From Planctomycetota bacterium (lineage in GTDB: Bacteria; Planctomycetota; Phycisphaerae; SM23-33): DNA of 43,969 nt. Where the stretch lies: NCBI GenBank assembly GCA_024275995.1, contig JAJRYB010000003.1, positions 1 through 43,969 on the forward strand. The letters run 5' to 3'. The notes under the pieces are model-generated. The model did no database searches. It was not told where the DNA came from and worked only from the letters and a program-made list of their open reading frames with translations. Both the position numbers and the translations under genes were made by a program. Below, in pieces: positions 10,849 through 21,809 of this stretch. Each line of letters begins with the position of its first letter. Within the stretch, counting starts at the first letter, position 1.

Positions 10849-13062
10849 TTAAGGCTCGCCCCTCCGTTGTTGCGGCGTGCCAAGTAACCGCAGGCTGTTG
10901 GAGACGACCAGCAGCGTAGCGCCGGTGTCGGCGGCGATTGCCATCCACAGAGAGGCAACGCCCAGAAGCGTCAGGGCGATGAACAGAAGTTTCAACCCGA
11001 GCGCAAAAATAATATTCACCTTGATGACGCCCAGCGTGCGTCGCGAATGGCGGATGAGCCAGGACAGCTTGGTCAGGTCGTCGGACATCAGCGCCACGTC
11101 GGCCGTTTCCAGTGCGGCGTCGGTTCCCATCGCGCCCATGGCGATTCCGAACGTAGCAACGGCCATGGCGGGCGCGTCGTTGATACCGTCGCCGACCATC
11201 GCGACCTGGCCGTACTCGCGAACGAGAGACTGTACGGCGTCGACCTTGTCTTCGGGCAACAGCTCGAAGCGGAACTCGTCCACGCCGGTAGCAGCCGCTA
11301 CTGCCCTGGCCGTACCCTCGTTGTCGCCGGTGAGCATGACGATTTTTTGGACCCCGACATCCTTGATGGCCCGCACGCTCTCGGCGGCGTCTTCTCGAAC
11401 GCCGTCGGCTACGCTGATCAGCCCGCACACGTGATCGTCGTTACCAACCGCGATTACCGTGTGTCCGGCGTCCTCCAATTCATCAGCCTTGGCGTGGACT
11501 TCGGGCGTCTCCTGGACCTTGTCGTGCATCATGCGGTGGCTGCCGATCCAGAATAACCGCCCGTAGACGCGCCCCTGGGCCCCCTTGCCGGGTATCGCCT
11601 GGAAGTCCTCGGCCGGTGGGATGCCGATGCCCTCGGACCGAGCCGTTCGCAGGATCGCTCTGGCCAGTGGGTGCTCGCTGTTGGCCTCCAGCGCCGCTGC
11701 CCTTTCCAGAAGCTCTCCCGGCGTGTGATCGTTCAGGGGTATGACCTGCTGCACCTCGGGATGTCCGTAAGTCAGCGTGCCCGTCTTGTCCACCGCCAGC
11801 GCGCGGAGACGACCGGCAGCTTCCATATACATCCCGCCCTTGACCAGTACGCCGTTGCGGGCCGAGGCGGTGAGGGCAGAAACGACGCTGACCGGCGTCG
11901 AGATCACCAGGGCGCACGGGCAGGCGATCACCAGGATCACCAGCCCCCGATATATCCAGTCGGACCAGTCCAGCGACAGTGCCAGCGGAGGGATGAGCAC
12001 GATCGCCGCCGCCAAGGCCATCATGATCGGTGTGTAATACCGGGCGAAACGGTCCACCCACTGTTGTGCCGGAGCGCGGCGAGACTGGGCCTTCTCGACC
12101 ATCTGAATGATCCTCGCCAGCGTCGTGTCGCTCGCCGACTTCGTGGAGCGGAACTCCATCGCGCCGTCTTCGTTAATCGTGCCGGCGTACACCTCGTCGC
12201 CCGGCTTCTTGCTTATCGGCATCGATTCGCCGGTGATCGGAGCCTGGTTGACGGTGGAGGACCCCTTCAGAACCACTCCGTCCAGGGGGATCTTTTCGCC
12301 GGGGCGAACCAGGACGGTTGCGCCGACGGGCACGTCCTCGACCGGTTTCTCGTGAACTTCTCCATGTTCCGGACAGATGTACCGGGCGACGGTCGGGGAG
12401 AGGTCCATCAGCGCTCCGATCGCCCGTCGGGCGCGCCCGACGCTCCAGTGCTCCAACAGCAGCGATACGGCAAAGAGCAGCGCAACTGTCGCGCCCTCGA
12501 ACCATTCGCCGATGAACAGGGCGCCAGTGACGGCCACCACCATCAACAGGTTCATGTCCGGGCGCAACCTTCGACCGGCCAGCAGGGCCTTGGGGACCAC
12601 GAACCAGGCCCCCGTCACGACCGCTCCGACGTACAATAGAATCGACGCCAACGGGAAGACGTGCCGCTCGTCGTGTCCCTCGGCGAAGGCGTCAACGATA
12701 CTACCGTGCAGCAACCAGTGCGAGAGGAAGCCTGCCACCAGCAGACCGCCGCTCAATACCGCCATGATCAGCCGACCGTGCCGCTGCCAGAATGACGTCG
12801 GCTCCAGCTTTCCGCGGGACTCCCACGGAATGGCTTTCATGCCGGTGGCGGAGACGGCTGCGACGATATCGGCTGGGGAGACGCGCTCGGCGTCATATTC
12901 GACGGACATCCGTGCATTGAGTACGTCGAAATCCATCTCGATGACGCCGGGCCGGTTTCCGACCTCCCGCTTCAGGATGGTGACTTCCTCAACACAGTCC
13001 AGACCCTCGACCTTGTAGTCGATGCGCTGTGGGACGGATCTGTTTTCGCTATTGAAGCTCAC
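10849..13062 (-). CDS. P1B-type heavy-metal ATPase (Zn/Cd/Pb exporter)
   Basis: 737 residues, full length. An HMA-like N-terminal domain carries GLDCVEEV (C23 followed by E25/E26 in place of CxxC), and a His-rich loop is at about 129-134. All catalytic motifs are present: TGES (277-280), the membrane CPC (381-383), the phosphorylated aspartate in DKTGT (D425) and GDGIND. The last membrane helices read ALGLKLLFIA... with ADTGATLLV and end SLRLL, where the K and D are the metal ligands typical of ZntA-type Zn/Cd/Pb pumps. It exports metal from the cytoplasm using ATP. The GTG start has AAGGAGG upstream, and the gene overlaps the end of the preceding PPIase gene by 14 bases. It is the last gene of the SPFH/metal operon. 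Confidence 0.93.
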   Translation of the reverse strand: MSFNSENRSVPQRIDYKVEGLDCVEEVTILKREVGNRPGVIEMDFDVLNARMSVEYDAERVSPADIVAAVSATGMKAIPWESRGKLEPTSFWQRHGRLIMAVLSGGLLVAGFLSHWLLHGSIVDAFAEGHDERHVFPLASILLYVGAVVTGAWFVVPKALLAGRRLRPDMNLLMVVAVTGALFIGEWFEGATVALLFAVSLLLEHWSVGRARRAIGALMDLSPTVARYICPEHGEVHEKPVEDVPVGATVLVRPGEKIPLDGVVLKGSSTVNQAPITGESMPISKKPGDEVYAGTINEDGAMEFRSTKSASDTTLARIIQMVEKAQSRRAPAQQWVDRFARYYTPIMMALAAAIVLIPPLALSLDWSDWIYRGLVILVIACPCALVISTPVSVVSALTASARNGVLVKGGMYMEAAGRLRALAVDKTGTLTYGHPEVQQVIPLNDHTPGELLERAAALEANSEHPLARAILRTARSEGIGIPPAEDFQAIPGKGAQGRVYGRLFWIGSHRMMHDKVQETPEVHAKADELEDAGHTVIAVGNDDHVCGLISVADGVREDAAESVRAIKDVGVQKIVMLTGDNEGTARAVAAATGVDEFRFELLPEDKVDAVQSLVREYGQVAMVGDGINDAPAMAVATFGIAMGAMGTDAALETADVALMSDDLTKLSWLIRHSRRTLGVIKVNIIFALGLKLLFIALTLLGVASLWMAIAADTGATLLVVSNSLRLLGTPQQRRGEP

Positions 13063-15040
13063 GGGCTTCCTCCTTCAACATTTCGATGAGTGTGTAATCA
13101 TATATTCTTGCTTCGGCCTTGCGGAGCAGGTCGCTTTCCATCCTGCTCATGAGTTCGTAGTGCCTGGTCTCCATCAGGTCCCCGCGAACCCGATCTCTTA
13201 CCTCCTCGAAGGCCCGATCCATTGGCTCCTGGCGGTCCCGAACAAACGCGACGTGGAAGTTGCCTCCCATCCGAAAGACCGGACTAAGCCTGCCCTTTTC
13301 AAGGTCGAGCACGTTCTCGTGAAGCTCATGGTAGAACAGCTCGTTCAGGGCATTGTCGCTCTCGCCGATCCATCCCTCGATCCTCCCGCCCGTCCTGGCG
13401 GTGTACGGATCGTCGGTGTAACGCTTGGCTACACTGGCGAATCCATCTCCCGCAAGTTGATCCGGCGAGAGGGTCTTGAGTTCGGCCAGGGCCTTTTCGG
13501 CTTTTCGGCGGGCTCGTTTCTCTTCTTCGTCTCCGGCGCCGCCGTTGATGCGAAGGTAGTTGATCTTGACGCGAGCCGGCCGGCGGTAACGGCGCTTGTG
13601 CTTCGTGAAGAAATCCCGCAATTCCCGGTCCGTAACCGTGATTTTGTCATCCACCTCCTCCTGGTGCAACACCTGTTTGAGCAGGGCAAGCCGGACGCGG
13701 TCGATTCGTTTTCGATTCTTCCCGGCGCGCAGATCGTCGGAAGAATCCTCGACGACAAGGGAACGCTCGACCATCCTGTCCAGGAGTTTCTTTCGGGCTT
13801 CGAAATCCGCATACCTGGCCTGCTCCAGTGGCGTCAGTTCCCCGAACTCCTGCATGAAATCTCCCAGGCTGTAGGGTTCGCCGTGGATGGTGAATAGCGT
13901 GGCGTTGCGGTTTTCCTTCAGATGCCGCCGGCGAAGTTCTCCGGCCAGTTCGGAGGCGAGCTGTTCGCGGACCTCGTCAAATCGCTGAGGCCTTGGTTCT
14001 TCGCGAGCCTCCACTCGCGCCACCAGCAACCTGTCTCCGTCTTCGAGAACGTCCGTGACCTCGGGCGGGAAATGTCGGGCGAGTTTCATCTTTTTCCACA
14101 GCGACTCCTTCTCGGAGACCCAGTTCGTAGCGGCTGCCTTGCCGGGCGTACCCTTGTCGGTAAAGAATCTCCGTATCTTCGAAACGGGTGCGCCCGAAAG
14201 CAGGAGTATGCGGACCTCGCGGGCTATATCCCGACCGGGCGAGTCGCTTCCACCGGCCGGAACTTCAACCAGCAGCAGCTTCATTCGTGTGGGCAGACGG
14301 AACCGTTCGCGCTTCTCGAAGTAGGCCGTCCGCAACTGTTCCTCGTCACCCCTGGGGTACTTCAGGAGGTCGTAGTTGACGGTGAGTCCGGAGTTCTCCC
14401 TTAGCTCTTTGAGGTACTTCCGGATGAAGGCCCTTTCTTTCCGCCGCGTGAGAAGGACCCTGATTTTCCCAGTGACCTCTGAGAGGGTGCGCGAGCCGAA
14501 CTCTTTTCGGTTCTGCTCGTAATAGGTTTTGATCTCAGAGCCTTCGACGCGGATTTTCCCCTTGTGCCAACCACGATGGAGGTCGGCGATGTTGATCTCT
14601 TCGACAGCGTGTTTCAGCAGGTGGCGAACCTTCCCTCTCTCGGCGAGCTTCTTCTTCGCCACAAGATTTCCGATGAGCCGGTCCACGACCAGGCTGGTCG
14701 CCGCCTCCCTGTAAACAGCCAGCGTGTGGGCTTCCGCATGCTCACTACCGCAGGCCAGAGGCGTTTCGCACTGTTCGTCCTCTGTGCAGGAATCATGGTC
14801 ATCTCCGTGACGGGAGCAACGAAGGTGCTTTTCGCACCGTGGCAGGAACTCATGCAAGTAACGGCGCAGTTCCTCTTTGGTTACTTTTCCACCCCGGTAC
14901 GTAGCGACGATGCCGGGTTCCGGAGGCCTGAGCATGCGCATGGACAAAGCCCCCAGCAGGATCAGCACAAAAATGCCGACACCTACCTGGAAGCGCCTGT
15001 TACGGACCAGGACACCGATCTTTTTCATCTTTTTCCACAC
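13049..15040 (-). CDS. Membrane-anchored parvulin-type PPIase with Cys/His-rich insert (second copy)
   Basis: 663 residues from the GTG at 15040 (GGAG seven bases upstream); an ATG at 15028 and a TTG at 15070 are alternatives. An uncleaved membrane anchor (about 17-37) is followed by a SurA-N-like helical region. Between residues 63 and 105 lies an unusual cluster (H63, C69, H72, C75, H78, H82, C85, C91, C97, H101, H105), likely metal-binding. A degenerate parvulin-like segment occurs near 250-370. A better C-terminal parvulin domain lies near 490-610 (VKINYLRING, then DGFASVAKRYTDDPYTARTGG and GRLSPVFRMGGNFHVAFV). Such proteins catalyse prolyl isomerisation and chaperone exported proteins. 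It shares architecture and motifs with the protein at 19263-21224. Its end overlaps the ATPase gene. Confidence 0.8.
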   Translation of the reverse strand: MWKKMKKIGVLVRNRRFQVGVGIFVLILLGALSMRMLRPPEPGIVATYRGGKVTKEELRRYLHEFLPRCEKHLRCSRHGDDHDSCTEDEQCETPLACGSEHAEAHTLAVYREAATSLVVDRLIGNLVAKKKLAERGKVRHLLKHAVEEINIADLHRGWHKGKIRVEGSEIKTYYEQNRKEFGSRTLSEVTGKIRVLLTRRKERAFIRKYLKELRENSGLTVNYDLLKYPRGDEEQLRTAYFEKRERFRLPTRMKLLLVEVPAGGSDSPGRDIAREVRILLLSGAPVSKIRRFFTDKGTPGKAAATNWVSEKESLWKKMKLARHFPPEVTDVLEDGDRLLVARVEAREEPRPQRFDEVREQLASELAGELRRRHLKENRNATLFTIHGEPYSLGDFMQEFGELTPLEQARYADFEARKKLLDRMVERSLVVEDSSDDLRAGKNRKRIDRVRLALLKQVLHQEEVDDKITVTDRELRDFFTKHKRRYRRPARVKINYLRINGGAGDEEEKRARRKAEKALAELKTLSPDQLAGDGFASVAKRYTDDPYTARTGGRIEGWIGESDNALNELFYHELHENVLDLEKGRLSPVFRMGGNFHVAFVRDRQEPMDRAFEEVRDRVRGDLMETRHYELMSRMESDLLRKAEARIYDYTLIEMLKEEARELQ

Positions 15041-15140
15041 ACCTGCGCTCCGGTCGAGCGCGAAGGTCAACTCCCCCGCCCATCCGGCGGGGGTTGACTG
15101 CGTCCGACCGTGGTGCCCATCAAACCATTCGCCCGTCGGG

Positions 15141-15272
15141 CTATATCTTCCATTCCTTGATGCGATCCGACAAGGTCGTGATAAGTCCCGCCGTCTTGAA
15201 CAGGACGACCACCGCTCCGATGGCTACCAACAGATTTCCCACATTACTGAGTATTTCACCAACATTTGCCAT
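15141..15272 (-). CDS. 43-residue single-helix membrane protein, tandem copy B
   Basis: The ATG at 15272 has GGAG eight bases upstream. The product starts MANVGEILSN, has a hydrophobic helix at about 12-33 (LLVAIGAVVVLFKTAGLI) and ends with an amphipathic charged tail, SDRIKEWKI. It is 31/43 identical to the product of 15347-15478, so the two arose by tandem duplication with a repeat distance of 206 bases. It lies between the HflK-like and PPIase genes on the same strand. I do not recognise the family. Size and context suggest a small accessory subunit of a membrane complex. Confidence 0.75.
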   Translation of the reverse strand: MANVGEILSNVGNLLVAIGAVVVLFKTAGLITTLSDRIKEWKI

Positions 15273-15346
15273 TTTGTTTTCTCCGTGTACAGATCTATTC
15301 GATTTCGCGAGCCGCCAACGCGACGACTCTCCCAGGCCGGGACCAG

Positions 15347-15478
15347 CTACACATCCCATTCCTTGATGCGGTCTGAAAGGACGGTGATAAGAGCGGCCGT
15401 TTTGAACAGTATGACCACCGCTCCGATGGACACCAGCAGTGCGGCTACGCTACTAAGCAGGCTTCCGATATTCGCCAT
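15347..15478 (-). CDS. 43-residue single-helix membrane protein, tandem copy A
   Basis: The ATG at 15478 follows a GGAGACAATCAAG leader. The product starts MANIGSLLSS, has one hydrophobic helix (LLVSIGAVVILFKTAALI) and ends LSDRIKEWDV. It is nearly the same length and sequence as copy B, with substitutions mainly conservative (V/I, A/S, G/A). This conservation pattern argues that both are translated. Lacking a cleavable signal, each is probably a single-span inner-membrane protein. Function unknown. Confidence 0.75.
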   Translation of the reverse strand: MANIGSLLSSVAALLVSIGAVVILFKTAALITVLSDRIKEWDV

Positions 15479-15546
15479 CTTGATTGTCTCCATTGCACGG
15501 GTTTAGCGGATTCGCGAGCGTGCCACGCGGCAGCCCACGGTTTGTT

Positions 15547-15699
15547 TCACTCTGTCGGGTGGGTTTCTTCTCCCAATCGTGCGGCGGCCCGCTTTTCCAG
15601 TCGCTTCACGATCCACCAAAGGCGGGCGAGCAACATCGCGCCTCCGACGGCTGAGAGAATCAAAACCACTGTGGACACGATTTGCAGTACCTGGACCAT
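15547..15699 (-). CDS. 50-residue small membrane protein
   Basis: The ATG at 15699 has GGAG six bases upstream and lies 22 bases after the stop of the HflK-like gene. The product has one hydrophobic helix (about 4-26, VLQIVSTVVLILSAVGGAML) followed by RLWWIVKRLEKRAAARL, a basic amphipathic segment, and an acidic end. The sequence is not related to the two 43-residue proteins. By position it belongs to the same operon; it may be an adaptor of the SPFH assembly. Confidence 0.7.
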   Translation of the reverse strand: MVQVLQIVSTVVLILSAVGGAMLLARLWWIVKRLEKRAAARLGEETHPTE

Positions 15700-15721: not shown

Positions 15722-16711
15722 CTATCTCTTATCGAGAAACCTCAAGTTCACCTTCTTGCCTTTACCCGAAGAAGCGGTCAGAATGTACTTTCCGACCCGG
15801 GGAAGAATCTTCTCCATCGTTTCCAGATACAGCCGGTATCGGGTGACGTCTTCGGAATACATCTGCAGGTTCTTCTGATACTCTGCCAGCACGGACTCGA
15901 AGTTTTGGGCGTCGCCTTTGGCCCGATTGACGACCTCGGTGCGATATCCCTCTGCCGCACTGACCATTTCCCTGGCCCTTCCCCGAGCTTCCGGAACGAC
16001 GCTGTTGGCAAAGCCCCTGGCCTGGTTGATCGTCTGTTCGCGATCTTCCCTGGCGGTCTGGACGTCCCGGAAGGCGTCGGCTACGTCTGCGGGCGGGACG
16101 ATGGCGCGGATGTTGAACGCCGTAACCTGCAGACCGCTCTCGTAGGTGTCGAGAACCTTCTGGGCTTTCCAAAGGATCTTGGTCTGGGCGCTGATTTTCT
16201 CGGTCGTGAGAATATCGTCCACCCCCATCTGGCCCACAAGTTCAACGAGCGCAGCGCCGATGGCGTTGTGGAGCAGGCGTTCTGCGCTGAAATTGGTCCG
16301 GTAGAGGAACCTGACGGGGTCCTTGATCTTGTAATGGATGATGGCCTCGATGTTGATGATATTCTCGTCACCGGTCAGGAGTTGCAATCTTTCCGGGAGA
16401 AACGCCGGATGTTCGTGCTCCGGCAGAACCATACCGATCTCCGCGCGTCGGACCTTTCCCACGTTGATAATCTCGACACGATCCACGGGCCAGGGAACCC
16501 GGTAATGCGCGCCTTCGCCGATTGTGGCGATGACACGCCCGAATCGCTTGACGATGCCCTGCTGGCCGGGATTGACGATGTAGACACCCGTCAGGAAGTA
16601 CACGACGACCAGCATGCCCACCGCAACGGGTATGAGCACGGCAAGCTTCAAATGACCGAAGGCCTGCTTGATGTCGTCCCAGGAATTTCGTGGCGTCTCG
16701 TTCTCAGTCAT
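15722..16711 (-). CDS. HflK-like SPFH (band 7) protein
   Basis: 329 residues. One N-terminal membrane helix (about 22-44) is followed by an SPFH domain beginning VNPGQQGIVKRFGRVIATIG, then LTGDENIINIEAIIHYKIKDP, the HflK signature. A coiled-coil region follows, with AREDREQTINQARGFANSVV and AREMVSAAEGYRTEVVNRA. HflK and HflC form a large membrane cage around the FtsH protease in other bacteria and modulate turnover of membrane proteins. The ATG overlaps the stop of the HflC-like gene as ATGA. This is the second HflK-type protein of the operon; the other is fused to a transporter domain. No ftsH is in the window. Confidence 0.88.
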   Translation of the reverse strand: MTENETPRNSWDDIKQAFGHLKLAVLIPVAVGMLVVVYFLTGVYIVNPGQQGIVKRFGRVIATIGEGAHYRVPWPVDRVEIINVGKVRRAEIGMVLPEHEHPAFLPERLQLLTGDENIINIEAIIHYKIKDPVRFLYRTNFSAERLLHNAIGAALVELVGQMGVDDILTTEKISAQTKILWKAQKVLDTYESGLQVTAFNIRAIVPPADVADAFRDVQTAREDREQTINQARGFANSVVPEARGRAREMVSAAEGYRTEVVNRAKGDAQNFESVLAEYQKNLQMYSEDVTRYRLYLETMEKILPRVGKYILTASSGKGKKVNLRFLDKR

Positions 16712-17661
16712 TTCTGCACAACTCCTGCCGGGCGGGTCGTCGCGTTTCCGACGCTCGATTTGACCGACGAAGGCATTGGACCCCCGAAGTACTGCAACAA
16801 CTCCGAGTCGGCGGGCAGGACGGCAGTTGTCTTCCCGTCAATGATCTTCTCGTAAGCGGCCAGCGTCCTTATGAAGCGGTAGAAAGTGGGATCTTTCTGA
16901 AAGGCCTCCGCGTAAATGCGGATGGCCTCGGCGTCCCCCTCTCCCTTGATGATCTCGGCTTGCTTGTATGCTTCGGATACGATCGTCTTTTCTTCCTTTC
17001 TTGCCCCGGCGCGAATCTTGGCGGCCTCCTCGCTGCCCTCGGAACGGTACTTTCTGGCCATTTGCTCGCGTTCGGCCTTCATCCGGCGGAAAACGCTCAA
17101 CTTGTTTTTCTCCGGGAAATTCAACGTCCGCATCTCAACGTTGACCGTCTCGATTCCATAGCCTTGAGTCTGCCGGTTGCATCGGTCGGTTATCGCCTCG
17201 AGCATCTTGGGCAGTTTCATGCGGGTCTGGTCCACGTTGACCAGGTCGCTCAGTTCAAACTCCCCGATCGCCACGCCCAGCACCGAGGATACGACGTCCG
17301 ACAGGCGGGCCTCCGCGCCGACCTTGTTCCGGACCGTCTTGAGGAACGTCAGGGGATCCGTAATCTTCCACGAGGCGTAGTAGTCCACGACGATGCTTTT
17401 CTTGTCACGGGTGAGGAACTCGATCTGCCCGGCCTCGTACACCTGGAGACGATTATCGTATCGCTGCACGGTTTGAATCGGGTCGGGGTACTTCCAGTGC
17501 AGGCCCGGCTCGAGAATCGAGCGGACGGGTCTGCCGAACTGCGTTACGATCGCATATTCGGTCGTGTCCACGACGAAGAGGACGAGGTTGCTGATGATCA
17601 GAAGGAACACAAAAGCTCCCACGCCCAAGGTTACCTTCATCCATGTTCTCTTTGCTTCCAT
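16708..17661 (-). CDS. HflC-like SPFH (band 7) protein
   Basis: 317 residues. An N-terminal membrane helix (about 9-31) is followed by VVDTTEYAIVTQFGRPVRSI and LEPGLHWKYPDPIQTVQRYDN, the HflC form of the SPFH domain. Further on are RDKKSIVVDYYASWKITDP and the helical region MKAEREQMARKYRSEGSEEA and KGEGDAEAIRIYAEAFQKDP, which is highly typical of HflC. HflC assembles with HflK into an oligomeric membrane cage. Its ATG has AAGGAG seven bases upstream, 30 bases after the fusion gene, and it is translationally coupled to the next hflK-like gene. Confidence 0.9.
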   Translation of the reverse strand: MEAKRTWMKVTLGVGAFVFLLIISNLVLFVVDTTEYAIVTQFGRPVRSILEPGLHWKYPDPIQTVQRYDNRLQVYEAGQIEFLTRDKKSIVVDYYASWKITDPLTFLKTVRNKVGAEARLSDVVSSVLGVAIGEFELSDLVNVDQTRMKLPKMLEAITDRCNRQTQGYGIETVNVEMRTLNFPEKNKLSVFRRMKAEREQMARKYRSEGSEEAAKIRAGARKEEKTIVSEAYKQAEIIKGEGDAEAIRIYAEAFQKDPTFYRFIRTLAAYEKIIDGKTTAVLPADSELLQYFGGPMPSSVKSSVGNATTRPAGVVQK

Positions 17662-17691: not shown

Positions 17692-19266
17692 CTATTTCGA
17701 CTCGAACAGCGTGCCCGCATTCTTTCCAACAAACCAGAGATCGGTGCCGCCGAGTTCGACCCCGCCGCCGAGGAGGATCTTCCGGACACCGGGCAGCACT
17801 TTCTCCATCGCTTCCAGGTAGAGCCTCGTCTCGGTGATCTCGCGAAACCTGCTGTACACGGAGCGTTTCCTGGCAAACCCCCCGGACTCGCCCTCGCTGC
17901 GACGAATCTTCTCCAGTTTGTATCCCTGCGCGTCCAGGACCATCTTGACCGCCTCGCCGCGCGCCCTCGGAACGAGAGCGTTGCGGTAGGAATAGGCCTC
18001 GTTGATGTACGTAACTTTATCCTCGCGCGCACTGGCTACATCCTGGAAGGCTTCGATCACGTCCGCAGGCGGGCGCAGCTCGAGAAACAACACGTCCACC
18101 ACCTCCAGTCCTGTGACATTCTTGTCGAGTTCTCTCTGGAGGGTACGTTTCGTCTCGTCCAGCGCCTCCCTGCGCCCGGTGGTGAGCAGGTCGTCGATGC
18201 GCGTATGTCCGACCATTTTGCGGACGCTAGCCTGCGCCGCCTCTCTTACCAGGGCATCCGGCTGAACGACCTGGAGGAGATACTCGATCGGGGCGGATAC
18301 GCGATAGTGCACGGCGACGTTCACGTCCACCAGATTCTCGTCACCGCTCAGGAGCAGGCGTTTGCCGGTGCTGACCTCCCGGATGGTTGTCGTTTTAATC
18401 AGGTCCACACGCTCCAGGGGGTACGGCAGACGGTAGTGAAGGCCCGGTCCGCGAGAACCGGGAAGAACCTTACCAAGGCGACGCACGACGGCCATTTCGT
18501 CCGGCTGGACGTAATACAGGCCCGACGCCAGGTATCCTGCCACCGCCAGGGTGACAAGGCAAACTGTGACAAGCTTGCCGGGGCCCTTCAGGGAACCATG
18601 CGCGTGATCGCTCGCGATCTCAGCCCGTCCCGAGGCGAGCGCTCGGACATTGGTGACGAGTATTTCAATGGCCGCCAGGAAGATGAATACCACGACAATG
18701 GTGGCTGCAACCTTGTCAAGCCCCACCAGGCCGAAGACGCTTCCAAACAATCCGACCAGCACGGCCGAGGAGCAGAACATGTCCATCCGCGCGTGAAAAC
18801 CGCCAGCCATGAGGCTGGGAGAGCCGGTCTGGCGACCTACGAAGAGCATGTACCGTCCCATGAAGTAGGTAATACAGACGCCCAGCAACGCGCCGATGGC
18901 TGCCGGAGCCGCGTAGGCGATCTCAACCGCCTCGCCGCCCACCGCCTCGGCGAAGAGTTCAAAGCCCATCCAGAAAATGAAGATCGCAACGATGATAGCG
19001 ACGATATTCTCGACGCGCGCGATAAGACCCGCGTAACGCTGGTCCTTCTGCCTGGCTACCACCAGGCCAAGATACACCACGCCGAGCACGAAGACGTCGG
19101 CCAGCGAATGCCATGCGTTGGCCTTCAGCGCCAGGCTGCCGGAGACGGAGGCCAGCAGGAAGCGCAGAAAGATCAGCGCGGTGTTGGCGCCGATACTGAT
19201 CAGTATCGTCTGTTCTTTTCTCTGTGCTGCGTCCTGGAGGTTCGGCATTCCCGTGGGTTCAGTCAT
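17692..19266 (-). CDS. CDF metal-transporter domain fused to HflK-like SPFH domain
   Basis: 524 residues with two parts. Residues about 15-210 are the membrane domain of a cation diffusion facilitator with six predicted helices. H53-x3-D57 (ANAWHSLADVF) lies in helix 2 and H158-x3-D162 (GGFHARMDMF) in helix 5, the four-residue zinc site of Zn-type CDF proteins. The usual cytoplasmic CDF C-terminal domain is absent. Instead, a short His-containing linker (DHAHG, 220-224) leads to another membrane helix (about 231-251) and a complete HflK-like SPFH domain (VQPDEMAVVRRLGKVLPGSR, SGDENLVDVNVAVHYRV and AREDKVTYINEAYSYRNALV). The frame is uninterrupted. The ATG overlaps the preceding PPIase stop as ATGA. 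I infer a zinc-sensing or transporting subunit built into an HflK/HflC-type assembly. Confidence 0.88.
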   Translation of the reverse strand: MTEPTGMPNLQDAAQRKEQTILISIGANTALIFLRFLLASVSGSLALKANAWHSLADVFVLGVVYLGLVVARQKDQRYAGLIARVENIVAIIVAIFIFWMGFELFAEAVGGEAVEIAYAAPAAIGALLGVCITYFMGRYMLFVGRQTGSPSLMAGGFHARMDMFCSSAVLVGLFGSVFGLVGLDKVAATIVVVFIFLAAIEILVTNVRALASGRAEIASDHAHGSLKGPGKLVTVCLVTLAVAGYLASGLYYVQPDEMAVVRRLGKVLPGSRGPGLHYRLPYPLERVDLIKTTTIREVSTGKRLLLSGDENLVDVNVAVHYRVSAPIEYLLQVVQPDALVREAAQASVRKMVGHTRIDDLLTTGRREALDETKRTLQRELDKNVTGLEVVDVLFLELRPPADVIEAFQDVASAREDKVTYINEAYSYRNALVPRARGEAVKMVLDAQGYKLEKIRRSEGESGGFARKRSVYSRFREITETRLYLEAMEKVLPGVRKILLGGGVELGGTDLWFVGKNAGTLFESK

Positions 19267-21224
19267 CGGTAGAGGGCCCTTTCCGCTTCGTGGCGTTTGG
19301 ACTCAATCTGGAGCATCCGGCTGAGGATGAAATCCCGGATGATCAGTTGCGATTTCACCAGCAGCTCGTTCTGAAGCTCGTTCATGCGCTGCTGATGCTT
19401 GAACTGCCTGAGAAAAGCTTCTACGGCGGGCCTGGCCTCTTCGAAGGTCTGCTGGATGCTGGGACGATGCTCACGCAACTTGACAATCCAGAAGTTATTC
19501 GAGAACTCGAAGAAGTCGCTTACCTGCCCGACCTTCAGACCGAATACGTAACGATGAAAACCGTGCTCCATCAACTCGCCGAGATGGCTGCCGCCCTCAT
19601 ATATCCACCGGTCCATTTTACCACCGCGCGTGGCGGTCCAGTCCTCGGAGTATTCCTTGGCTACCTTGGCGAAATCCTCGCCGGCGCCGAGCTTCGCCTG
19701 GGCCTGTTCAATCTTCTTCCGCGCCCGCTTGCGCTCGTCTTCGCTGAAACCGACACCCACCCGGATAACGCTTATCCTGGCCTTGGCCGGCTGCATCAAC
19801 CGCTGCTTCTGCTTCTCGTAAAACGCCCTGGCCTCGGAGTCGCTGATCTCGACCTTCTCGTCTACCTCCTCCTTGTGCAGCATTTGCTGAAGAGCCCGTC
19901 TCTTGAGCTGCTCGATCTCTTTGCGCTGCTGGGTGTCCGTGGCCTTATCATCCGCTTTTTCCATCAGCAGTTCCTTGACGATGAGCTGGTCGAGGATGTT
20001 TTTCCTGGCCTCGAAGCTGGCGAACTGCTTCTGCTCGGCCGCTGTGAGTTCCGAAAACTCCTGCTGGAACTGCTCGACCGTGAACCGCTTGCCGTGGATG
20101 CTGAAAAGGGCCTCGTACCTGTTGAGCTTGAACTTCTCCCGTTCCTTCCGGCGACGGACCGCTGCGCGGACGTCCCCAACGACCGCGGAGAGGGGTTTTT
20201 GTTTCCGGGCCCCACGCTCCAGGATCTTGACGATGTAGTAGAAGCCGCCGTCCCTGAAAATAGAGGTAAACTCGCCCGGGTAGCGACGAAAGACCTCCTC
20301 CTCGAATTTCCTGCTCTTTCGCCCGCGCCGAACGACCTCCGAACTCGCCGTGTTACCGTCGGCAAACTCCACCGCGACCGCGTTGAAGTCTTCTCCTGCG
20401 CGCAGTTTCATAAGGGCCTTCTCCGCCTTCTCCCGGGCAGCCTTCTCGTCGCCGGCGCTTATCCGAAGCGGTAGTACCTGCACAAACTCCGGCGCCACGA
20501 ACTCCTTGCGGTTGGATTCATAATAGGCGCTGATCTCCGCCTCGGTCGGATCGGGAACCTTCAATAGCTCGTAGTTCCGCTCGATCACGGCGTTCGCCTT
20601 GAGCTCCGCGATGTATTTCGGGATGTATTCAGCCTGCTTCTGTGCAACGAGGATGGATTCGATCTCCTTTTCCACTTCGTCGAGCGGACGGTCCTTGTAC
20701 TCGTCCTTTCGCTGCTGGTAGTACCGGCGTATCTCGACCTTGTCCGGTTTCAGTTTGTCGGCGTGCATCTGGCCCGCCAAAGCGCCAAGGTTGATCTCCT
20801 CGACCAGGTGCTTCAGCTTGTGCTTGACGTCCTTGCGACTGGTCATCCCCTTGTCCCTGATCCACCTGTCCACCATTTTCTCCATGACCAGTTGCTGGAG
20901 GAGAGTGCGGTAGGATTCGACGGAGTCAAGAGGGTGAGTTTCGCAGTCCTCTTCCGCTGAACACTTTGAATGATCGTAGGCATGTTTCTCGCAGACGGCA
21001 TGTTTCCCTTGGCGGTGGGTCGCCTCGTTGATGTACCGCCGCAGCTCATTGGCCGTAACCTCGCCGCCGACAAAAGTGGCCACCACATCGTCGCCGATAC
21101 GCTTGGCCATATCGGTCCGTTCGTCCTGCTGGTCCTGTTCCTGCTTGACGGCCAGAAGAACCAGCATCAGGGCGAGAGCCGTGACGCCCACAATGGTTAT
21201 GATGATGCCCAGCTTGCTTGACAT
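19263..21224 (-). CDS. Membrane-anchored parvulin-type PPIase with Cys/His-rich insert (first copy)
   Basis: 653 residues. A membrane anchor (about 6-26, IIITIVGVTALALMLVLLA) is followed by a SurA-N-like region with TFVGGEVTANELRRYINEA. Then comes a cluster H70, H75, C78, H81, H85, C88, C94, H97, a likely metal site. Two parvulin-like regions follow, near 240-350 (VQVLPLRISAGDE...AGEDFNAVAVEFADG) and near 475-590 (ARISVIRVGVG...AGEDFAKVAKEYSEDWTAT RGG). It should act as a prolyl isomerase/chaperone on the outer face of the inner membrane. It shares its architecture and the motif C-E-K-H...C...C-E-T with the product of 13049-15040. The ATG has GAGGAG upstream, and the stop overlaps the fusion gene. 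Confidence 0.82.
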   Translation of the reverse strand: MSSKLGIIITIVGVTALALMLVLLAVKQEQDQQDERTDMAKRIGDDVVATFVGGEVTANELRRYINEATHRQGKHAVCEKHAYDHSKCSAEEDCETHPLDSVESYRTLLQQLVMEKMVDRWIRDKGMTSRKDVKHKLKHLVEEINLGALAGQMHADKLKPDKVEIRRYYQQRKDEYKDRPLDEVEKEIESILVAQKQAEYIPKYIAELKANAVIERNYELLKVPDPTEAEISAYYESNRKEFVAPEFVQVLPLRISAGDEKAAREKAEKALMKLRAGEDFNAVAVEFADGNTASSEVVRRGRKSRKFEEEVFRRYPGEFTSIFRDGGFYYIVKILERGARKQKPLSAVVGDVRAAVRRRKEREKFKLNRYEALFSIHGKRFTVEQFQQEFSELTAAEQKQFASFEARKNILDQLIVKELLMEKADDKATDTQQRKEIEQLKRRALQQMLHKEEVDEKVEISDSEARAFYEKQKQRLMQPAKARISVIRVGVGFSEDERKRARKKIEQAQAKLGAGEDFAKVAKEYSEDWTATRGGKMDRWIYEGGSHLGELMEHGFHRYVFGLKVGQVSDFFEFSNNFWIVKLREHRPSIQQTFEEARPAVEAFLRQFKHQQRMNELQNELLVKSQLIIRDFILSRMLQIESKRHEAERALYR

Positions 21225-21389: not shown

Positions 21390-21809
21390 TCAGACGAGCA
21401 AGACGATGGTGCGGGGGGAATAATCGGACGGGGGCGCCGTCTCGGTAGTGGCGAGCATACTCGATGCGTAAGGATACGGCTGCGCGATCTGCGACGCGAC
21501 GGCCTGGCACGCCTGAAGGTCGTCGCGCACCATCGACGGGCGCGACGGCAGATCCGCCGGAACGCTTACTCCGCCGGTAACGGGTACGTCCAGGCAGCAC
21601 TCGATAAAATCCACCGCAACTGGTCCGGCGGACTCGGAGAGGCACCTTTCACCCGGCGAGGGCGGGCACATTTGATCGCTGGCCTGGGCTACGGACTTCA
21701 GGGCGACGTGCCCATCGGTACCGACGCACAGCAGCACGGGCACACCGCCTCCGAAAGAGGCGGCAACACCCACAACCAGGGTCCATACCATGGCAAGCCG
21801 CTTGAACAT
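21390..21809 (-). CDS. Small exported Cys-containing protein at the head of the SPFH/metal operon
   Basis: 139 residues. An N-terminal signal-like segment (MFKRLAMVWTLVVGVAASFG) is followed by LLCVGTDGHVALKSVAQ, then MCPPSPGERC, then FIECCLDVPVTGG. The 'LCvGtDGHv...' and 'ECClDvP' signatures resemble short exported proteins I associate with metal-efflux operons, but I cannot name the family. It has no good ribosome site; a promoter sits so close that the transcript may be leaderless. It lies 165 bases before the first PPIase gene on the same strand. A metal-binding or metal-handling role is inference. Confidence 0.6.
   Translation of the reverse strand: MFKRLAMVWTLVVGVAASFGGGVPVLLCVGTDGHVALKSVAQASDQMCPPSPGERCLSESAGPVAVDFIECCLDVPVTGGVSVPADLPSRPSMVRDDLQACQAVASQIAQPYPYASSMLATTETAPPSDYSPRTIVLLV

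Follow-up and report, generated by a model that had tools for sequence, protein, structure and literature searches.

A CDF metal-transporter domain fused to HflK in a conserved operon of three SPFH proteins

The window analysed here is a 43,969-nucleotide stretch of DNA from a Planctomycetota bacterium (contig JAJRYB010000003.1 of assembly GCA_024275995.1; GTDB lineage Planctomycetota; Phycisphaerae; SM23-33). It encodes a fusion protein in which a cation diffusion facilitator (CDF) membrane domain is joined to an HflK-type SPFH body (Table 1). The reading frame starts with ATG, is open throughout its 524 residues and overlaps the end of the upstream gene, which encodes a peptidyl-prolyl isomerase (PPIase), by 4 nt. 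The fusion is not a lone gene but opens a conserved operon of three SPFH proteins, in which HflC and a second HflK come next. The arrangement suggests that metal pumping is tied to membrane cages in a so far undescribed way.

Both halves of the fusion match their families above the cut-offs. Pfam assigns residues 21–210 to Cation_efflux (PF01545; 98 bits, cut-off 26.6) and residues 253–425 to Band_7 (79.7 bits, cut-off 23.6). NCBIfam identifies the CDF superfamily (TIGR01297; 98.4 bits, cut-off 82.35) and hflK (TIGR01933; 211.9 bits, cut-off 159.4), with the HflK-type SPFH region spanning residues 251–499. The CDF C-terminal domain (CTD), which is usual but not universal in CDFs, gave no match in the fusion in the Pfam and NCBIfam searches. 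An AlphaFold2 model built with 42 homologues (mean pLDDT 85, pTM 0.49) contains six helices in the CDF half (10–42, 45–73, 76–110, 119–147, 150–177, and 183–212), a low-confidence linker (216–227), a seventh transmembrane helix (TM7, 229–247), SPFH strands and helices (250–398), and long helices (404–490). Residues 11–214 of the model superimpose on YiiP with a Z score of 24.6 and 2.2 Å over 199 residues. Residues 232–512 match Escherichia coli HflK over 266 residues with 35% identity, and the HflK body is complete up to about residue 344 of the E. coli protein. H53, D57, H158, and D162, located in TM2 and TM5, constitute the tetrahedral CDF metal site. The first-pass annotation of the sequence had described a CDF membrane domain and a complete HflK body in one frame, an intact metal site and the loss of the cytoplasmic regulatory domain. 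All four points were confirmed, and the strand, which it had not given, is minus.

The SPFH body is predicted to lie on the periplasmic side. The fusions carry 4.5/0.7/3.0/1.0/2.6/0.9/6.0 Lys and Arg residues in successive loops, alternating between inside and outside. This charge distribution, together with the seventh helix, predicts an inside N-terminus, six helices, an inside linker, TM7 and a periplasmic SPFH body. A single transmembrane helix leading into a periplasmic SPFH body, as in HflK, is a prediction from TM7, the charge rule and the fold match. The body would therefore be placed at the metal-exit side of the transporter and not at the site of the cytoplasmic CDF domain. The earlier proposal that the SPFH domain stands in for the regulatory domain needs correction, since the two would lie on opposite membrane faces. 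The transporters were also proposed to sit in the cage wall. Because the HflK/C wall is periplasmic, they would instead form the membrane base of the vault.

The fusion is widespread. Scanning 84,980 species genomes yielded at least 53 loci on genome contigs, which together with the window and one conjugative plasmid form a set of at least 55 fusions, some of them near-identical. Among the loci listed, the carriers belong to about 15 phyla, with taxa taken from record titles and labels of metagenome-assembled genomes (MAGs) that may err. The titles include Planctomycetota, Lentisphaerae, Kiritimatiellota, Rokuibacteriota, Methylomirabilota, Chloroflexi, Actinomycetota, Marinimicrobia, Spirochaetales, Alphaproteobacteria, Deltaproteobacteria, Eisenbacteria, WWE3, and one archaeal MAG. 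Cultured carriers include Nitratireductor indicus C115, Chelativorans multitrophicus DSM 9103 and Aquibium oceanicum B7. Within the phylum of the window the fusion is rare, being present at full length in 4 of 392 Planctomycetota genomes. H53 is kept in 53, D57 in 52, H158 in 54, and D162 in 52 of the 55 fusions, a set that extends to homologues with an overall identity of just about 35%. Two outcomes that the first-pass annotation had named as damaging, confinement to this assembly and loss of the metal site in close homologues, are therefore not observed. The fusions at loci L061 and L065 have D57 replaced by Gly and D162 by His, possibly reflecting an altered metal preference.

All listed fusions have lost the CTD and carry a few to a few dozen linker residues before TM7. 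HflC and then the second HflK lie downstream in the same orientation wherever the contig is long enough. The exception is the archaeal locus L098, where HflC was found after the fusion but a second HflK was not. The locus in genome G051, from another family of the same class (L160), has the order PPIase, fusion, HflC, HflK, PPIase, P1B ATPase, and its fusion is 76–77% identical to that of the window. A conjugative plasmid of Aquibium oceanicum, recorded as complete (L049), has the order fusion, HflC, HflK, PPIase, P1B ATPase, the fusion being annotated merely as HflK. In a tree of SPFH domains, a single supported group unites 38 fusions with one truncated locus, and the second HflK forms a separate lineage. 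The tree and the plasmid copy indicate transfer between phyla, with the same reservation about MAG labels, and rule out the fusion as a lone oddity of one lineage.

Three types of transporter occupy this position: CDF, a Cu/Zn permease of the SO_0444 type and a P1B ATPase (Table 1). The feature common to these triads is a metal transporter forming the N-terminus of the first HflK in an HflK–HflC–HflK series. Fusions of an SO_0444/ArsP_1 permease to HflK occur in nine genomes of the class, with HflC and HflK downstream where the flank was read; a further one, in genome G528, is cut at the contig end. One permease triad adjoins genes for a CobW-type GTPase, MerC and an alkaline phosphatase (CobW and MerC at L161:1918-4104). 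CobW and MerC might indicate zinc supply rather than efflux at that locus.

A related triad lacks the metal site. Planctomycete chromosomes encode a 762-residue CDF-like::SPFH protein, with matches in the window's own genome and in 46 of 59 relatives searched. Its six-helix N-terminus aligns over the full length with the CDF domain at 87–89% probability in profile comparison, as against 0.1% in controls with the unrelated ArsP. E201, A188, and D184 are kept, but the four ligands are all lost, with Leu at the position of H53, Gly at D57, Tyr at H158, and mostly Asn, Cys or Gly at D162. A P1B ATPase gene is within reach in 14 of the 19 regions read, and three of the other five regions end at a contig edge. 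The domain is likely, though not proved, to be of CDF descent, and the protein is likely a dead transporter retained as a vault component.

On the minus strand of the window, the gene order is exported Cys-containing protein, PPIase, CDF::HflK, HflC, HflK, two or three tiny single-helix proteins, second PPIase, and P1B ATPase. Three gene pairs overlap: PPIase/fusion, HflC/HflK, and PPIase/ATPase. The ATPase has the CPC motif and the TM8 D-x-G motif of the P1B-2 Zn/Cd/Pb class. For the predicted exported protein, the corresponding position in L160 holds a possible counterpart of weak similarity (E 0.002 among the open reading frames searched), and no sequence homologue was found among the open reading frames of L052-L056. 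The PPIases of the window and of L052-L058 contain a Cys/His cluster of the C-x-K-H-x2-D-H-x2-C type, a possible metal-binding insert, which is missing from most other fusion loci. The paralogous pair of single-helix proteins (about 45 residues, window 15141-15493) represents a small conserved family whose genes lie after hflK and ahead of the PPIase or ATPase gene that comes next.

Table 1. Features of the operon in the window and of related transporter::HflK loci
Feature	Location	Strand	Remarks
CDF::HflK fusion, 524 aa	19266-17692	minus	CDF membrane domain aa 10-212, cytoplasmic linker, TM7 229-247, HflK/SPFH body 250-500
HflC	16708..17661	minus	TIGR01932, 206 bits, cut-off 134
Second HflK-type SPFH protein	15722..16711	minus	own paralogue lineage; TIGR01933, 231 bits; 4-nt overlap with HflC
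Membrane-anchored PPIase, PpiD/SurA-like	19263..21224	minus	Cys/His cluster CEKHAYDHSKCSAEEDCETH; 4-nt overlap with fusion
Second PPIase	13049..15070	minus	Cys/His cluster CSRHGDDHDSCTEDEQCETPLACGSEH; overlaps P1B ATPase gene
P1B-type heavy-metal ATPase, Zn/Cd/Pb class	10849..13062	minus	CPC and ADTGA motifs, N-terminal HMA domain
Candidate 50-aa single-helix protein (MVQVLQIV...)	15547..15699	minus	elsewhere just one weak relative
Small single-helix protein METIKMANIGSLLSSVAALLVSIGAVVILFKTAALITVLSDRIKEWDV	15347..15493	minus	family kept at same place in L052-L056, L160, L200
Second copy of small single-helix protein MANVGEILSNVGNLLVAIGAVVVLFKTAGLITTLSDRIKEWKI	15141..15272	minus	paralogue of the 15347..15493 protein
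Predicted exported Cys-containing protein	21390..21809	minus	upstream of first PPIase; no Pfam hit
SO_0444/ArsP_1 permease::HflK	L010, L022, L032, L034, L035, L039, L041, L043, L047, L198		HflC (and HflK where read) next
P1B heavy-metal ATPase::HflK	L162:3467-6487, L197:5228-8209		genomes G076, G547; HflC then HflK next
Chromosomal CDF-like::SPFH	L006/L163 (own genome, C109:18349-20634), L133-L156		HflC, HflK next, often P1B ATPase near

Neighbouring genes were compared with those at 27 ordinary hflKC loci whose flanks were about equally long. Genes for PpiD/SurA-like PPIases lie near 33 of the 55 listed fusions and P1B ATPase genes near 24, as against none of the 27 control loci in either case (p 2e-8 and 1e-5, respectively, values that overstate independence because the flanks come from related loci). 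The motifs of the nearby ATPases are nearly all of the Zn/Cd/Co class, either P1B-2 (CPC, AD-x-G) or P1B-4 (SPC, HEGST). L059 has a copper-type ATPase on the opposite strand about 8 kb from the fusion. Relatives of regulators in these regions include CadR/ZntR-like MerR and CmtR-like ArsR proteins, and an EnvZ/OmpR-like two-component pair is present near many copies.

An H-D-H-D ligand set is typical of zinc among ZnT transporters. Zinc is most likely the metal of the fusion operon. Copper as the main metal is not favoured because the partner ATPases are nearly all of the Zn/Cd/Co type, although Sco genes near nine loci and PCu(A)C genes near eight weigh the other way.

The reading that we hold to be probable is that the fusion is the first gene of a mobile divalent-metal operon, most likely for zinc, and places an exporter in the membrane-embedded base of an HflK/C vault with three components. 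The CDF half would move metal from the cytoplasm to the periplasm, where the C-terminal half would act as an HflK subunit. Together with HflC and the second HflK, the fusion would assemble into an SPFH vault with exporters in its base, so that exported metal may be released into or under the vault. The SPFH assembly would gather the exporter protomers, replacing the missing CTD. The PPIases anchored in the membrane may work at the same place, as may the P1B ATPase. Of this model, the computations cover the architecture, the conservation of the ligands, the operon, its spread, the predicted topology and the recurrence with other metal transporters.

Several observations weigh against this exporter model, in addition to the relatedness of the flanking loci. 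Transport by a CTD-less CDF within the fusion is something we infer. The ligand-less CDF-like relatives indicate that such a fold may be retained after transport is lost, and the ligands are partly altered in a few fusions (L061, L065, L077, L098, and L099). Moreover, the Eisenbacteria triad resides in a housekeeping neighbourhood (gyrA, dnaN), with neither PPIase nor P1B ATPase genes found nearby.

The main rival to the exporter model gives the CDF half the role of a metal sensor or of a mere membrane anchor. Bound metal would set the state of a vault that handles damaged envelope proteins under metal stress; the PPIases would be its partners, and the fusion itself would carry out no transport of note. 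The chromosomal triad that lost all four ligands demonstrates that such a fold can serve without transport, and the PPIases and the EnvZ/OmpR-like pair point to envelope proteostasis. However, the transport site is fully kept in most fusions, and wherever other triads have something else in place of the CDF, it is a transporter, so we consider a sensor or anchor unlikely, if still a serious contender. Alternatively, the protein could be an ordinary CDF exporter with the SPFH part as an oligomerisation tag and the operonic HflC and HflK as bystanders. CDFs work as dimers, as established for YiiP, and the CTD is lost in all fusions, which fits a substitute for dimerisation. This proposal appears improbable given that HflC and the second HflK stay linked at nearly every locus, the chromosomal triad persists though its metal site is gone, and the SPFH body is predicted on the opposite membrane face from a CTD. 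A misassembly, frameshift or other MAG artefact was considered since the window comes from a 134-contig assembly. Dozens of independent genomes, some of them from named strains, show the same frame and gene order, as does the plasmid, which rules it out for practical purposes.

HflK proteins typically form a 24-subunit vault with HflC and bind FtsH. The complex could regulate FtsH, with the exporter as a built-in substrate or cargo under proteolytic control, as membership in the HflK and HflC families would allow. An Arg near the HflK–FtsH contact reported in PMC12048511 is kept in 42 of 55 fusions, 27 of 27 ordinary HflKs and 0 of 21 operonic second HflKs, but with the numbering of the paper and of the sequence used here differing by two this is suggestive at most. 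FtsH is not in the fusion operon of the window's genome, where it is located on another contig, and an FtsH query matched 1 of the 55 listed fusion loci. We rate control of FtsH as very improbable as the role of the complex, and the tie between metal flux and membrane quality control proposed in the first-pass annotation is conjectural if it is to run through FtsH.

Returning to the exporter model, it may extend to a general class of machine, a possibility we rate somewhat short of probable. SPFH vaults would have a metal-exporter base in which CDF, SO_0444 permease and P1B ATPase are exchangeable on an HflK1–HflC–HflK2 chassis. They would enclose periplasmic space for exported metal, where proteins damaged by metal could be handled with the help of PPIases. 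The fusion bears on what SPFH vaults do beyond holding FtsH. The recurrent covalent joining of HflK to metal transporters of three unrelated kinds is a direct genetic link from vault to cargo function, testable in culturable strains, and the operon is of a mobile, metal-homeostatic kind that had been overlooked.

As the first-pass annotation had supposed, no characterised protein of this architecture was found. The full-text literature contained no description of the fusion or operon, although subscription papers and preprints are poorly covered and the absence is no proof. A survey of prokaryotic SPFH proteins distinguishes 12 subfamilies, and the words efflux, metal and transporter are absent from its text (PMC2636767). 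The word transporter is likewise absent from a study of nine Pseudomonas aeruginosa SPFH proteins (PMC13086221). CDFs without a CTD are known, going by the title of Russell and Soulimane 2012 as cited in PMC4995437.

The fusion shares features with several known systems. The CDF of the 2012 study is reportedly MmCDF3. Like the zinc transporters YiiP/FieF and the ZnT family, the fusion has a six-helix fold with H-x3-D ligands in TM2 and TM5; unlike usual CDFs, it continues into a seventh helix and an SPFH body instead of a cytoplasmic CTD. It resembles the E. coli HflK–HflC(–FtsH) vault (7vhq, 7wi3, and 9cz2) in the SPFH body, the transmembrane helix leading into the periplasm and the joint encoding of HflK and HflC. 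It differs in that a six-helix metal transporter takes the place of the N-terminal cytoplasmic region, two HflK-type subunits are present, and the operon has PPIase and metal ATPase neighbours but no FtsH. The SO_0444-family Cu/Zn efflux transporter (NF033936) is, like CDF, fused to HflK in triads with HflC and HflK, but has an unrelated fold and represents a separate fusion. Finally, stomatin bound to aquaporin 1 (9zd2), by the title of this fold-search match, likewise has an SPFH oligomer in physical association with a membrane transporter; that complex is eukaryotic, non-covalent and not related to metal, whereas the fusion joins the two covalently.
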